This document shows positions 12,746-55,640 of a stretch of 64,000 nucleotides of DNA, piece after piece (position 1 is the stretch's first letter; each line of letters opens with the position of its first letter). Source of the stretch: Halalkalicoccus sp. CG83. Lineage in GTDB: Archaea > Halobacteriota > Halobacteria > Halobacteriales > Halalkalicoccaceae. Where the stretch lies: NCBI RefSeq assembly GCF_037081715.1, contig NZ_JAZDDH010000002.1:186001-250000 (forward strand), read 5' to 3'. The translations under genes were made by a program, and so were the position numbers. Under the pieces are notes generated by a model that was not told the DNA's origin, searched no databases, and saw only the letters and a list, made by a program, of their open reading frames with translations.

Positions 12746-14932
12746 ATGGGTAGACGCAAGAAGATCGTTCAGGAGTGTGAACGGCTGATGGACAACCCGG
12801 AGCACATCCGGAACATCGCCATCGCCGCACACGTCGATCACGGCAAGACGACGCTGACGGACAACCTGCTCGCCGGCGCGGGCATGATCTCCGACGAGAC
12901 CGCCGGCCAGCAGCTCGCGATGGACACCGAGGAGGACGAACAGGAACGGGGCATCACGATCGACGCCGCGAACGTCTCGATGACCCACGAGTACGAGGAC
13001 ACCAACCACCTCATCAACCTCATCGACACGCCGGGCCACGTCGACTTCGGGGGCGACGTCACCCGTGCGATGCGCGCGGTCGACGGCGCGCTCGTGGTCG
13101 TCGACGCCGTCGAGGGCGCGATGCCCCAGACCGAGACCGTCGTCCGGCAGGCGCTGCGCGAGGGCGTCAAGCCCACGCTGTTCATCAACAAGGTCGACCG
13201 GCTCATCAGCGAGCTCCAGGAGGGCCCCCAGGAGATGCAACAGCGCCTCGTGTCGGTCATCGATGACGTCAACGAGCTCATCCGCGGAATGACCGAGGAC
13301 ATGGACGACATCGACGACTGGACCGTCTCCGTCGAGGACGGGACGGTCGCGTTCGGCTCGGCGCTCTACAAGTGGGGCGTCTCGATGCCGTCGATGCAGC
13401 GAACCGGCATCGACTTCGGCGACATCATCGAGCTCGAGCGAAACGGGAACCGCCAGGAGCTCCACGAGCGCACGCCGCTCTCGAACGTCGTGCTCGACAT
13501 GGTCTGTGAGCACTTCCCCAACCCCGTCGACGCCCAGCCTCGACGTATCCCGCGCATCTGGCGCGGCGACGACGAGTCGGACATCGCGGAGACGATGCGG
13601 CTGGTCGACGACGAGGGCGAGGTCGTCCTGATGGTCACCGACATCGGTATCGACCCTCACGCCGGCGAGATCGCCGCCGGTCGCGTGTTCTCCGGTACCA
13701 TCGAGAAGGGCCAGGAGCTCTACGTCTCGGGCACCGCGGGGAAGAACCGCGTCCAGTCGGTCGGCATCTACATGGGCGGCGAGCGCGAGGAGGTCGAACA
13801 CGTCCCCGCCGGCAACATCGCCGCGGTCACCGGGCTTCGGGACGCGATCGCAGGTTCGACCGTCTCCAGCGTCGAGATGACGCCGTTCGAGTCGATCGAG
13901 CACATCTCCGAGCCCGTCATCACGAAGAGCGTCGAGGCGAAGAGCATGGACGACCTGCCGAAGCTCATCGAGACGCTGCGCCAGGTCTCGAAGGAGGATC
14001 CCACGATCCAGATCACCATCAACGAGGACACCGGCGAGCACCTGATCTCGGGTCAGGGCGAGCTCCACCTCGAGGTCATCACCCAGCGCATCGAGCGCAA
14101 CCAGGGCATCCCGGTCAACACCGGTGAGCCGATCGTCGTCTACCGCGAGGCGGTCCGCGGGGCGACCGAGACCGTCGAGGGGATCTCGCCGAACCGCCAC
14201 AACCGGTTCTACCTCACCGTCGAGCCGCTCTCGGAGGAGATCGTCGACCAGATCAAGCTCGGCGACGTCTCGATGGACATGCCCGAACAGGAGCGCCGCG
14301 AGGCGCTCCAGGAGGCGGGCATGGACAAGGACACCTCCCAGAACGTCGAGCACATCTTCGGCACCAACGTCTTCATCGACGACACGAAGGGGATCCAGCA
14401 CCTCAACGAGACGATGGAGCTCGTCATCGAGGGGCTCGAGGATGCCCTCGACGAGGGGCCGCTCGCGGCCGAGCCCGTCCAGGGGACGCTGATCCGGCTG
14501 AACGACGCGCGCCTGCACGAGGACACCATCCATCGTGGCCCCGCACAGGTCATCCCCGCAGTCCGTCGGGCGGTCCACCGCGCGCTGATCCACGCTCGCG
14601 TCTCGCTGATGGAGCCGATCCAGAACGTCCGCATCGACGTGCCCAGCGAGCACATGGGTGCTGCGAGCGGCGAGATCCAGGGTCGACGCGGCCGCGTCGA
14701 CGACATGTACCAGGAGGGTGACCTCATGGTGATCGAGGGGATCGCCCCCGTCGGGGAGATGATCGGCTTCTCGAGCGACATCCGCTCGGCGACGGAGGGT
14801 CGTGCGTCCTGGAACACCGAGAACGCCGGCTTCCGCATCATGTCCGACAACCTCCAGCGCGAGAAGATCATGGAGATCCGCGAGCGAAAGGGGATGAAGC
14901 TCGAACTCCCTGAGGCCGTCGACTACTTCTAA
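12746..14932 (+). CDS. fusA: Translation elongation factor EF-2
   Basis: 728 residues of archaeal EF-2, the GTPase that drives translocation. The P-loop AHVDHGKTT is near residues 28-36, the switch II region is [10 protein letters not shown], and NKVD is present. Domain IV carries [12 protein letters not shown], with His 596 the expected diphthamide site. The C-terminus ends with the usual ELPEAVDYF. It continues the str cluster after an inserted opposite-strand gene. Upstream is a 210-bp spacer with its own promoter-like AT-rich stretch near 12710-12720. Confidence 0.97.
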
Positions 14933-14935
14933 ACG

Positions 14936-15030
14936 GACCTTTTTACGCCTCGGGGTCGCGAAGCGACCCCCTCGCCACAAAAAGCTCCACCAAAAAAGGC
15001 CGAGAGCGCAACAGGCGCTCTCGGTCCGCC
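14936..15030. terminator. Bidirectional terminator module between EF-2 and Get3
   Basis: The module comprises, in + order, a T5 tract (14940-14944) just after the EF-2 stop, stem 1 GGGGTCGC/GCGACCCC (14952-14970), a 27-nt linker with two A tracts (14971-14997), and stem 2, a perfect 10-bp hairpin (15000-15024). On the minus strand stem 2 is followed by T6 and T5 tracts, which is right for ending the Get3 transcript. The T5 tract serves EF-2. A near copy with the same order lies at 53806-53891. Confidence 0.7.
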
Positions 15031-15100: not shown

Positions 15101-16045
15101 CTACACGCCGAGCCGCTTCGCGATCGCCTCCAGGGACTCGATGCCGTGGACCTCGCCGACCCGGTCGGGGAGCGTCCGAACGTCGAGGCCGGCGAAGCGC
15201 TCGTCGATCTCAGCGAGGCGCTGTTCGTGGAGGTCCTGGCGGGTACGACACCGCTCGCAGTCCTCGTCGATCTCCTCAAGCACCCGGTTGACGACGGCGG
15301 TTCGTACCGGCAGACCCGCCTCGTCCAGCCGTTCGACCAGTCGCTCGGACTCGCTGATCGCCATCGTCTCGGGAAGCAACACGACGCGGAACTCGGTCCG
15401 ATCGGGGTCCTTCAGCAGGTCGCGGGCGCGCTCCATTCGCGCCTTCAGGTCGGCGAACCCGTCTCCCTCCTCGCTTCGCCGTCCGCCGCCGAAGTAGTAG
15501 GCCGGCCCCATCGTCATCCGCTTCGCGGAGTCCGCGAGCCGCTGGACCTGCCCTCGGACCGAGAGCGTCTTCTTGAGGGTGGCGCTCATCACGTCGGGCA
15601 GGTCGAGCAGTCGCAGGGTGTGGCCCGTCGGCGCGGTGTCGAGGACGACGTACTCCCAGCGCTCGGAGTCGGCGAACTCGACGAAGACGTCGAGCGCCGC
15701 CACCTCGTCGCCGCCCGCTGGCACTCCGGCGCCGAACACCTCCTCGACGTCCTCGTCGTCGAGCTGGAGGCCGGCCGACCGCAGGTCGGCTGCGAGTCCC
15801 GAGGCCAGTTCGCGGTACTGCTCGGCGCGCTCGTCGGGGTCGATCTCGGCCGCCCACAGCCGGGGGCGGACCTCCCGGGGCTCGCCGCCGAGGTCGGTCT
15901 CGAACGAGTCCGAGAGCGAGTGGGCCGGGTCCGTCGAGAGCACGAGCGTCTCGTGGCCCGATTCCGCGAGCGAGAGGCCCGTCGCGGCCGCACAGGTGGT
16001 CTTGCCGACGCCGCCCTTCCCGCCGTAGAGAACGAACTGGGTCAC
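15101..16045 (-). CDS. Get3/ArsA-family ATPase
   Basis: 314 residues, a single-domain ArsA/Get3 ATPase. The deviant Walker A motif YGGKGGVGKTT is at residues 7-17, the A-loop/switch region is STDPAHSLSD, and the switch II region is LDTAPTGHTLRLL. A CERC motif at about residues 262-265 matches the zinc-binding CXXC of the Get3 dimer interface. The family targets tail-anchored membrane proteins, and archaeal homologues are thought to act likewise. No arsenite-pump genes are nearby, which argues against an arsenite role. Confidence 0.85.
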   Translation of the reverse strand: MTQFVLYGGKGGVGKTTCAAATGLSLAESGHETLVLSTDPAHSLSDSFETDLGGEPREVRPRLWAAEIDPDERAEQYRELASGLAADLRSAGLQLDDEDVEEVFGAGVPAGGDEVAALDVFVEFADSERWEYVVLDTAPTGHTLRLLDLPDVMSATLKKTLSVRGQVQRLADSAKRMTMGPAYYFGGGRRSEEGDGFADLKARMERARDLLKDPDRTEFRVVLLPETMAISESERLVERLDEAGLPVRTAVVNRVLEEIDEDCERCRTRQDLHEQRLAEIDERFAGLDVRTLPDRVGEVHGIESLEAIAKRLGV

Positions 16046-53395: not shown

Positions 53396-53800
53396 ATGGA
53401 AATATCTGATAAACTCCTGTGTCTGTTCAACGCCGAGCTCACCGAGACCGACGACGGCTACGTCGTCGAGGTCCCCGAGAGCGAGATCGAGACCGGCTCT
53501 CTCGATTCCGGCGAAACCTACCGCGTCGCGCTCATCTCACGTGAGGCGATCGAGAGCGAGTCGGGCGAATCGAGCCGTTCGTCGCGCCCGTCGACCGAGC
53601 CACAGCCGCCGGTCGAACAGGGCGAGATCCGCTACGTCGAGATCGAGGACATCGGCAAACAGGGCGACGGCATCGCCCGCGTCGAGCGCGGCTACGTGAT
53701 CATCGTCCCCGGCGCCGAGATCGGCGAACAGGTCAAGGTCGAGATCAGCGAGGTCAAGTCGAACTTCGCGGTCGGCGAGGTCATCGAGGAGACGCTATAA
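53396..53800 (+). CDS. TRAM-domain protein
   Basis: 134 residues. Residues 1-50 form a small strand-rich N-terminal part with ELTETDDGYVVEVPESE, then a Ser/Pro linker, then a TRAM beta-barrel (about 78-134): IEDIGKQGDGIARVERGYVIIVPGAEIGEQVKVEI and FAVGEV. Stand-alone TRAM proteins in archaea act as cold-shock-like RNA chaperones. It starts 13 bp after the YkgJ gene and converges on a radical SAM gene across a terminator module like the one after EF-2. Confidence 0.9.
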   Translation: MEISDKLLCLFNAELTETDDGYVVEVPESEIETGSLDSGETYRVALISREAIESESGESSRSSRPSTEPQPPVEQGEIRYVEIEDIGKQGDGIARVERGYVIIVPGAEIGEQVKVEISEVKSNFAVGEVIEETL

Positions 53801-53805
53801 CGCAC

Positions 53806-53891
53806 GTTTTTCCGACTCGGGGTCGCTTCGCGACCCGCTCGCCGCAAAAACCTGCACTAAAAAACCGCGAGCGAACGACGTTCGCTCGCGG
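53806..53891. terminator. Bidirectional terminator module between TRAM and radical SAM genes
   Basis: In + order: T5 tract (53807-53811), stem 1 GGGTCGC/GCGACCC with loop TTC (53820-53836), 27-nt linker (53838-53864) matching 14971-14997 at 23 of 27 positions, and stem 2 of 12 bp (53865-53876 with 53880-53891). Stem 2 is unlike the EF-2 copy in sequence but equally paired. Confidence 0.7.
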
Positions 53892-53939: not shown

Positions 53940-55640
53940 TCACGCGAATCGACCCAGGTCGACGCCGAGTTCCTCCTTGAGTGTACGCGCTGATTCGTGG
54001 GGTCGGCCGACGACGATGTCGCCCGCCGTCGACCGGCCGACACCGGGGATCGCCGTGAGCTCGTCCATGCTCGCGCCGTTGAGGTCGAGCGGGTAGGGGA
54101 CGCCGGTCACCGATCGGTAGCCGTGGTCCACGACCGCGACGTCGATCGTCCGCCCGAGTTCGCGCTCGCCCGGGATGCCGATCAGCAGCGAGTAGGTGCC
54201 GGGCTGGCGGCCGAACGTCCGGCCGTCCTCGTGGTACTCGAGGTGGACGTCCTCCAGGACGGTGCCCGGCGGCACGACCCGCTTCAGCATCGGATTGTCG
54301 ATCTCCTTGCGGACCTCGCGCTTGTACGTCTTGAACAGCTGCTTGTGCTCGCGGGCGATCTCCGCGCCGGTCTCGCCCATCTCCGTACCTGCGAACGCCA
54401 TCACCTGGCGGATGTTGATCCGCCGTAGCATCAGCCCCTCGTCGTAGACCCGCTGGAGGAAGCGCTTGTTGTGCTCGTAGGTCTCGCGGCGCTCGCCCTG
54501 TAGCCCGTGGACGAGGTTGATCCCCGGCAGGAGTTTGGGAAGGCGGTTCGGGGCGTCGGTGCCAGTTGCGGGACCGGATCCGGGCTCCTCGCCCGGTCGC
54601 CAGCCGCCCTCCTCGTTGACGACGCGTACCGCCTCGAGGCACTCCTCGGCGGTGACCAGCAGGTCGTTCTCCTCCTGGACGACCGGATCCGCGCTCTCGA
54701 GGCCGAACGCGGCGGTGTCGCCGGGGGTGTTGTGCTCGGCGATGGTCCGGATCCCCTCGCGCGAGCGCTCCGGGTAGTCGACGATCGTCACGGGGTTCAT
54801 GTTGTCGAGATGCAGCGTCCGGAGGTCGGGCGCGACCTCGCGAATGCCGCCGTAGAGCTCGCGGAGCGCGTCGGGGTTGGGTGCCTCGCCGTCGCCGCCG
54901 AACGCGAGGATGTCGGCCTGGCGTCCCAGTCGGAAGTGCCGAGCGCCGCGATCCGAGAGCCCATCGACCTCCTTCACCACGCTCTCGGCGCTGCGGAACG
55001 CGGGGTCGCCGTAGAGCGGTTCGGTGCAGAACGAACACCGGTAGGCACACCCTCTCGACGTCTCCATCTCGCAGATCAGGTAGTCCGGGTGGTTGGGGTG
55101 CTGTTCGATCACGAACGCACCCTTCCGTGCCCACCGGTCGATCTCCTCGTTGCTCCGCATCCGGTCGCCGAACCCCTCGAGTCCGCCGTCGACCAGGTCG
55201 TAGGCGGCGGCCTCGACGTCGCCCTTCGCGACGAACTCGTAGTCGAGGTCCTTCCGCTCCATGTCCTGTGCACCGGCGTTCTCCTCGCCGACGCCGAACC
55301 GCACGGGTCCGCCCATCAACGAAGTCCCCCGAGACACCCACGCCAGTTTCTTCACCTCGTCGGGCTCGGCGGGCGTTCCGCCGACGTAGTTTCCGGGGAC
55401 GGTCATCCCGCCGATGTAGATCATCAGGTCCGCCTCCTCGACGTCGCGCCACTTCGACCGGTCATCGCGTAGTTCGTCGATCGTGTGGTAGGTGACGTTC
55501 CCGGGGGAGACGCCCGCGTCGACGAGCGCGCCCGCCGTGTACCGTGGGTAGGTCGAGATGTAGGGAGGGACGCCGAAGTGCGCCGGCTCGTCGACGTAGC
55601 CGTCGACGAGCGTCACCGAGAGATCCGCCGGATCGGTCAT
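53940..55640 (-). CDS. Radical SAM enzyme with C-terminal helix-hairpin-helix
   Basis: 566 residues from ATG 55640. An N-terminal domain of about 190 residues (MIYIGGMTVPGNYVGGTP) precedes the radical SAM core, whose CxxxCxxC cluster is CAYRCSFC near residue 200. A GLESAD-like motif and VHGLQGE follow. The C-terminus has HhH, MDELTAIPGVGRSTAGDIVVG (about 515-535), a DNA/RNA-binding fold. This is the archaeal COG1031 type. The reaction is unknown; the HhH suggests a nucleic-acid substrate. The adjacent metallophosphoesterase follows in the same direction 32 bp upstream. Confidence 0.88.
   Translation of the reverse strand: MTDPADLSVTLVDGYVDEPAHFGVPPYISTYPRYTAGALVDAGVSPGNVTYHTIDELRDDRSKWRDVEEADLMIYIGGMTVPGNYVGGTPAEPDEVKKLAWVSRGTSLMGGPVRFGVGEENAGAQDMERKDLDYEFVAKGDVEAAAYDLVDGGLEGFGDRMRSNEEIDRWARKGAFVIEQHPNHPDYLICEMETSRGCAYRCSFCTEPLYGDPAFRSAESVVKEVDGLSDRGARHFRLGRQADILAFGGDGEAPNPDALRELYGGIREVAPDLRTLHLDNMNPVTIVDYPERSREGIRTIAEHNTPGDTAAFGLESADPVVQEENDLLVTAEECLEAVRVVNEEGGWRPGEEPGSGPATGTDAPNRLPKLLPGINLVHGLQGERRETYEHNKRFLQRVYDEGLMLRRINIRQVMAFAGTEMGETGAEIAREHKQLFKTYKREVRKEIDNPMLKRVVPPGTVLEDVHLEYHEDGRTFGRQPGTYSLLIGIPGERELGRTIDVAVVDHGYRSVTGVPYPLDLNGASMDELTAIPGVGRSTAGDIVVGRPHESARTLKEELGVDLGRFA

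Follow-up and report, generated by a model that had tools for sequence, protein, structure and literature searches.

Two module copies in the window

Two copies of a structured module were found in the window (the whole 64-kb stretch of DNA analysed here), one located between the convergent genes for EF-2 and an ArsA/Get3-family ATPase and the other between those for a TRAM-domain protein and a radical-SAM protein (Table 1). This convergent setting had been claimed in an earlier note on the same DNA and was confirmed for both copies, as was the fixed order of the parts, which in copy 1 are T5, an 8-bp stem, a linker (14971-14997), and a 10-bp stem. Comparison of the two linkers upheld the reported match at 23 of 27 positions, with the differences falling at linker positions 7, 14, 17, and 21, and the second stem does change in sequence while remaining paired, as had been stated (10 bp in copy 1 and 12 bp in copy 2). 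The module was found to begin earlier than first noted, with a left arm in each copy (GGACC or GCACG) that pairs with the linker. The earlier description of a linker between two stems was retained in part: the linker is conserved, but it is better described as making up the 3′ half of a single long hairpin with a clamp, in which GxA/TyC plus T5/A5 surround stem 1. On the minus strand, hairpin 2 of copy 1 is followed by CC-T6, an arrangement like that of an intrinsic terminator for the ArsA/Get3 gene. The 64-kb window has seven intergenic A/T tracts of at least 5 nt, and six of them belong to the two modules. At locus L313, in another family, a gene with a C-terminal end similar to that of the TRAM gene likewise ended in a module. 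Rfam returned no family for the module in the 64-kb window, the sole match being a tRNA gene at 1087-1159 on the minus strand.

Table 1. Positions of the two module copies and their neighboring genes in the window
Feature	Positions	Strand	Remarks
EF-2 gene	12746-14932	+	Upstream neighbor of copy 1
Copy 1 left arm GGACC	14935-14939	+	GGA (14935-14937) pairs with TCC (14986-14988)
Copy 1 T5 tract	14940-14944	+	8 nt past EF-2 stop codon; predicted plus-strand termination point
Copy 1 hairpin 1, GGGGTCGC gaa GCGACCCC	14952-14970		Arms 14952-14959/14963-14970; RNA z-score -4.1
Copy 1 first A5 tract	14979-14983		Partner of T5; T5 on the minus strand
Copy 1 conserved linker core GCTCCACC (n-CT-y-CAC-z)	14984-14991		
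Copy 1 second A tract	14992-14997		T6 on the minus strand, immediately past hairpin 2
Copy 1 hairpin 2, 10 bp	15000-15024		Arms 15000-15009/15015-15024
ArsA/Get3-family ATPase gene	15101-16045	-	Convergent neighbor of copy 1
TRAM-domain protein gene	53396-53800	+	Left neighbor of copy 2
Copy 2 left arm GCACG	53802-53806	+	GCA pairs with TGC (53853-53855)
Copy 2 T5 tract	53807-53811	+	7 nt past TRAM gene stop codon
Copy 2 hairpin 1, GGGTCGC ttc GCGACCC, 7 bp	53820-53836		Arms 53820-53826/53830-53836
Copy 2 A5-CCTGCACT-A6 linker	53846-53864		Within linker 53838-53864
Copy 2 hairpin 2, 12 bp	53865-53891		
Radical-SAM gene	53940-55640	-	Convergent neighbor of copy 2

Anatomy and taxonomic range of the module family

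The genome-wide linker search called for in the earlier note was performed with the pattern AAAAANCTSCACNAAAAA, which matched seven sites in the 3.64-Mb genome while its reversed form matched none, indicating that the sites are not due to chance. The same pattern was detected in 23 of 59 genomes (home genome included) and 12 of 30 genera, again with no reversed matches, and a looser form with flanks was detected in 66 of 293 genomes of the haloarchaeal order, with two reversed matches. The linker is thus conserved far beyond a plain T-tract, which bears out the claim that its conservation exceeds the needs of a plain terminator. From 140 distinct haloarchaeal copies, the full module was found to be GxACz-T5-[variable GC hairpin]-A5-nCTyCACz-A5, to which a further hairpin is often added. 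T5 is present in 130 of the 140 copies; the stem sequence is variable and often flanked by (c)TCGGG...CC(a/g)CTCG. A linker-free search (GCACCTTTTT, followed by A5 within 45 nt) identified 89 distinct places; G was base y in 84 of them, and 74 had a second tract of A4 or longer 6-10 nt further on. Conservation hence extends to the second tract and to the pairing base, neither of which the search required. Six of the eight GSACY-T5 sites of the home genome were modules. A hairpin 2 with 6 bp or more followed 51% of the copies between ++ genes and 41% of those between +- genes, compared with about 11% in shuffled sequence, and was found in only 1 of 20 '--' copies. A GC hairpin directly before a T tract occurs on the minus strand, via hairpin 2, in about half of the gene-end copies, and hairpin 1 has no directly following T tract on either strand.

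Within the order, a covariance model (R1, E-value ≤ 0.001) detected the module in 105 of 116 genomes, which represent 42 of 45 genera; the home genome had about 17-26 such places. In the rest of the phylum the model matched 1 of 30 genomes. Matches to a strict pattern occurred in 17 of the 393 genomes of the phylum, all within the order. A plasmid BLAST with the window copy as query gave no match, and very similar copies were identified on plasmids of Natrinema, Natrononativus, and Halorussus. Matches on viral contigs were set aside as chance occurrences in AT-rich DNA. A contig scan with the linker alone returned AT-rich bacteria and Acetobacteraceae. The latter (Komagataeibacter and relatives; L083, L092, L105, L107, L108, L112, and L123) carry a frequent repeat, GAAGCTTTTTGAAAAAAGCTTCACCAAAAACTT, which fits the linker pattern but has another hairpin and belongs to another phylum; it was taken as unrelated and is probably a terminator-like repeat of their own.

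Several lineages displayed variations on the module. In one genome (G083; L409-L421) and in Halorussus (L492, L493, and L497), a CCACC/TGGACC subclass was positioned about 40-60 nt upstream of start codons. The second hairpin of this subclass is extended (GACGC...AAATCTG..CAGATTT..GCGTC; 31 matches in one genome), several of its copies in G083 and on named Halorussus plasmids lie between divergent genes, and a promoter-insulating role is possible for this start-codon class. Tandem copies about 100-200 bp apart were observed in several genera (L046, L053, L054, L214, L280, L283, and L290), where the 3′ tail of the neighboring gene seems to be repeated along with the module. In several genomes (L304-L312, e.g., L307, L310, and L312), the linker is broken after (T/C)CTG by hairpin-rich inserts of 50-100 bp (TTCTGCGAAC... 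and GTTCTCGTGAGCGAG...), which end near CACCAAAAA and look as if they were small mobile repeats targeting the module.

Pairing of the clamp and placement at gene ends

Bases x and y, with y left free in the second search, were found to be complementary in 125 of 127 copies (C-G in 76, G-C in 44, and A-T in 5), whereas shuffled data averaged 62.6 and reached at most 85, or at most 115 when the shuffling was done within genomes. Several of the A-T cases are copies in which the GxA shares bases with a TGA stop codon (TGAAC-T5) and TTC stands opposite. RNAalifold analysis of 60 copies returned exactly GxA/TyC plus T5/A5, and the pair counts concurred. Among 66 sequence-divergent copies identified by the covariance model, whole triplets paired in 60 (shuffled mean 25), a result partly favored by the pairing terms of the model, although CCA, CGA, and GTA were absent from its training set. 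These paired triplets included CCA/TGG (37), CGA/TCG (13), GGA/TCC (5), GCA/TGC (2), GAA/TTC (2), and GTA/TAC (1), a variety which reveals that the first clamp pair switches too. The six kinds of triplet pair are mixed within genomes, and 12 genomes have at least two complementary types. The letters z and n were also linked, appearing as C.T or T.C, or as G-C/C-G, and rarely as C.C or T.T. That the parts stay paired while their letters change shows that the module is a real conserved element.

Gene context was assigned by calling genes from codon usage, which placed the 140 copies in 69 convergent, 57 tandem, 7 divergent, and 7 other settings (52%, 43%, and 5% of the 133 classified), while the background gaps of more than 40 nt (n = 225), a rough comparison drawn from the flanks of the same loci, comprised 29 convergent, 119 tandem, and 77 divergent. 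The expectation of mainly convergent placement therefore held as an enrichment (69/133 versus 29/225) but not as an exclusive rule, since tandem and divergent copies were also found; divergent gaps were depleted among the copies relative to this background. A plus-strand gene ended just left of the module in 92 of the 140 copies, in most cases with its stop codon between -2 and +8 nt of GxAC, and a minus-strand gene had its stop 8-59 nt right of the linker in 29 copies. Several other copies lay directly past the 3′ ends of tRNA genes. The 66 sequence-divergent copies were convergent in 24, tandem in 33, and divergent in 7 cases, with a stop codon adjoining the left arm in 29. What the copies of the main class share is thus the 3′ end of a gene and not convergence. 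The neighbors were diverse housekeeping genes, a mix that led us to reject a special pathway as the shared theme. Of 113 neighbor proteins, 64 fell into 22 ortholog clusters, about 11 of which span at least two families (including PhoU, a PINA-type ATPase, thermosome, EF-2, and GGPP synthase). In about nine clusters x-y differs between the orthologous sites (G-C, C-G, or A-T) with complementarity kept. This retention at orthologous genes with switching of x-y is the strongest evidence for selection in place.

Candidate role in transcription termination

Overall, these results suggest, with moderate confidence on our part, that the module is a conserved, structured, and bidirectional transcription terminator/insulator of the haloarchaea. 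RNA polymerase leaving the left gene would meet T5 a few bases past the stop codon and stop there, and polymerase arriving from the right would meet two T tracts (T5-GGTGxAGA-T5), with hairpin 2 before them where present. Together, the middle stem-loop and the GxA/TyC clamp of 3 bp bring the two T tracts into a single long hairpin. This hairpin can form only in extruded DNA or in read-through transcripts of either strand, and it may serve as a back-up that blocks polymerase passing either way. In H. volcanii, a T5C insert caused 95% termination in vivo and T stretches mark intergenic ends (PMC7237163), and U-tracts act with aCPSF1 in termination in other archaea (PMC8716108); the simplest reading based on this literature is that T5 would end the left transcript and the mirrored tracts would end right-hand transcription, with the clamp and hairpin presumably adding something in both directions. 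The terminator reading is favored by the position at gene and tRNA ends, the convergent enrichment, the retention at orthologs, the conservation of the second minus-strand T tract, and the housekeeping neighbors. Counter to it, (i) a lone T5 already terminates well, leaving the clamp and hairpin without demonstrated need; (ii) hairpin 2 occurs in only about half of the gene-end copies and is rare in the '--' class; (iii) the Halorussus start-codon copies, several of them between divergent genes, have no gene end to stop; and (iv) the module has multiplied and been duplicated in tandem in some lineages, with multiplication seen in Halorussus.

The intrinsic terminators that act bidirectionally in bacteria consist of an A-tract, a GC hairpin, and a T-tract, with the T tract after the hairpin, and serve convergent genes. 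The module is similar in its convergent genes, inverted symmetry, and GC hairpin, but its T tract precedes hairpin 1 on each strand, and a conserved linker and second A tract are added. Archaeal U-tract (oligo-T) terminators, whether intrinsic or assisted by aCPSF1 (FttA), share with the module a T5 a few bases past the coding region, an intergenic location, and housekeeping genes, yet in these the T tract alone suffices, and they lack a conserved hairpin, a clamp, a fixed linker, and T tracts in mirror arrangement (PMC7237163, PMC8716108). The module has the oligo-T tract shortly downstream on the coding strand, but departs from the absence of conserved secondary structure in having a conserved hairpin and covarying clamp, which makes it a variant of the archaeal U-tract terminator; we classify it as a new structural variant of putative function. 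No description of the module turned up among the papers searched, which dealt with terminators and hairpins of haloarchaea, with REP, and with bidirectional termination and included few subscription titles, so that this is not proof of novelty. More tentatively, the module may represent a new archaeal regulatory class, in which a clamp-locked hairpin that bears T tracts in mirror image and is retained at the same genes throughout the order would be recognized by a dedicated putative factor (RNA polymerase- or aCPSF1-associated) that stops transcription from both sides. Archaeal termination has been described in terms of a bare U-tract with no required structure; if the terminator reading is true, a structured, covarying, and bidirectional module in about 90% of the haloarchaea tested would change this picture for a major archaeal group. 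The module would also provide a handle on how haloarchaea keep transcription out of neighboring genes and useful parts for Haloferax genetics, and the compensatory changes point to exact mutants.

REP/BIME palindromes and RAYT elements are short extragenic hairpins in multiple copies, often at gene ends, with a short conserved 5′ foot. The module resembles them in being a short extragenic hairpin at gene ends, in several copies and with a short 5′ foot, and a REP-like mobile origin is a serious rival, if on the whole an unlikely one. According to this rival the module would be a REP/MITE-like mobile element, its hairpin and 3-nt arm read as single-stranded DNA by a putative Y1 (IS200/IS605-type) HUH enzyme, with the clamp pairing as a guide-target contact and any terminator role secondary. 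The G083 copies, which are alike over about 140 bp including the second hairpin and lie in varied gaps, the tandem copies with gene tails (L046, L053, L054, L214, L280, and L290), and the near-alike plasmid copies are consistent with such an origin; the likeness in G083 and the tandem duplications make a mobile REP-like history possible for part of the family. However, the exact stop-codon placement and the retention at orthologous genes across families argue against it, as does a foot that includes T5/A5 and whose triplet varies, even inside one genome, and covaries with the 3′ triplet. Known REP tags are fixed, with GTAG- and CGTC-tagged REPs named in the title of PMC3733652, and the fixed guide tetranucleotide of REP/RAYT (IS200/IS605 Y1) was not found among the six triplet pairs of the module.

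The earlier note had also raised a stable RNA. If the RNA acted from a single strand, G-U pairs would be expected in excess on that strand, but the isolated stem mismatches on the plus strand were evenly split (26 G.T versus 32 A.C), which disfavors a one-strand RNA and is expected if both strands matter, as for a bidirectional terminator. The same absence of bias renders improbable a 3′ UTR RNA element acting after transcription (in processing, in stability, or as a U.A-U triple helix on the minus strand), even though its strong folding, the minus-strand order of U5, U5, and A5, and the linked letters (z, n, z′) fit such folds; in addition, about a quarter of the copies lie between tandem ++ genes, where the minus strand is antisense, and if T5 terminates, the plus-strand RNA would lack the hairpin. 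Less probable still is a DNA-level site (a cruciform or putative protein-binding site) for chromosome architecture or promoter insulation: the strand symmetry and the Halorussus copies that precede start codons by about 40 nt agree with it, but the main class is tightly coupled to stop codons and tRNA ends. Further identities were dropped, namely a tRNA-like 3′ ACCA end, as z varies, and, by inspection only, a kink-turn, as the bulge is on the wrong side, and an attC-like integron site, as there are no GTT/AAC boxes and the copies are single at housekeeping genes.

The clamp-locked hairpin class may also exist in a short-loop form outside the order. In the one genome outside the order that model R1 matched (G297; L469-L488), the pattern NNACC-T4/5-loop-A5-nCT-NN-ACC-A4 had complementary triplets in five of six matches and no reversed matches; two matches to a looser pattern seem, by eye, to lie inside open reading frames. 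The triplets of this form include AAA/TTT and CAA/TTG.
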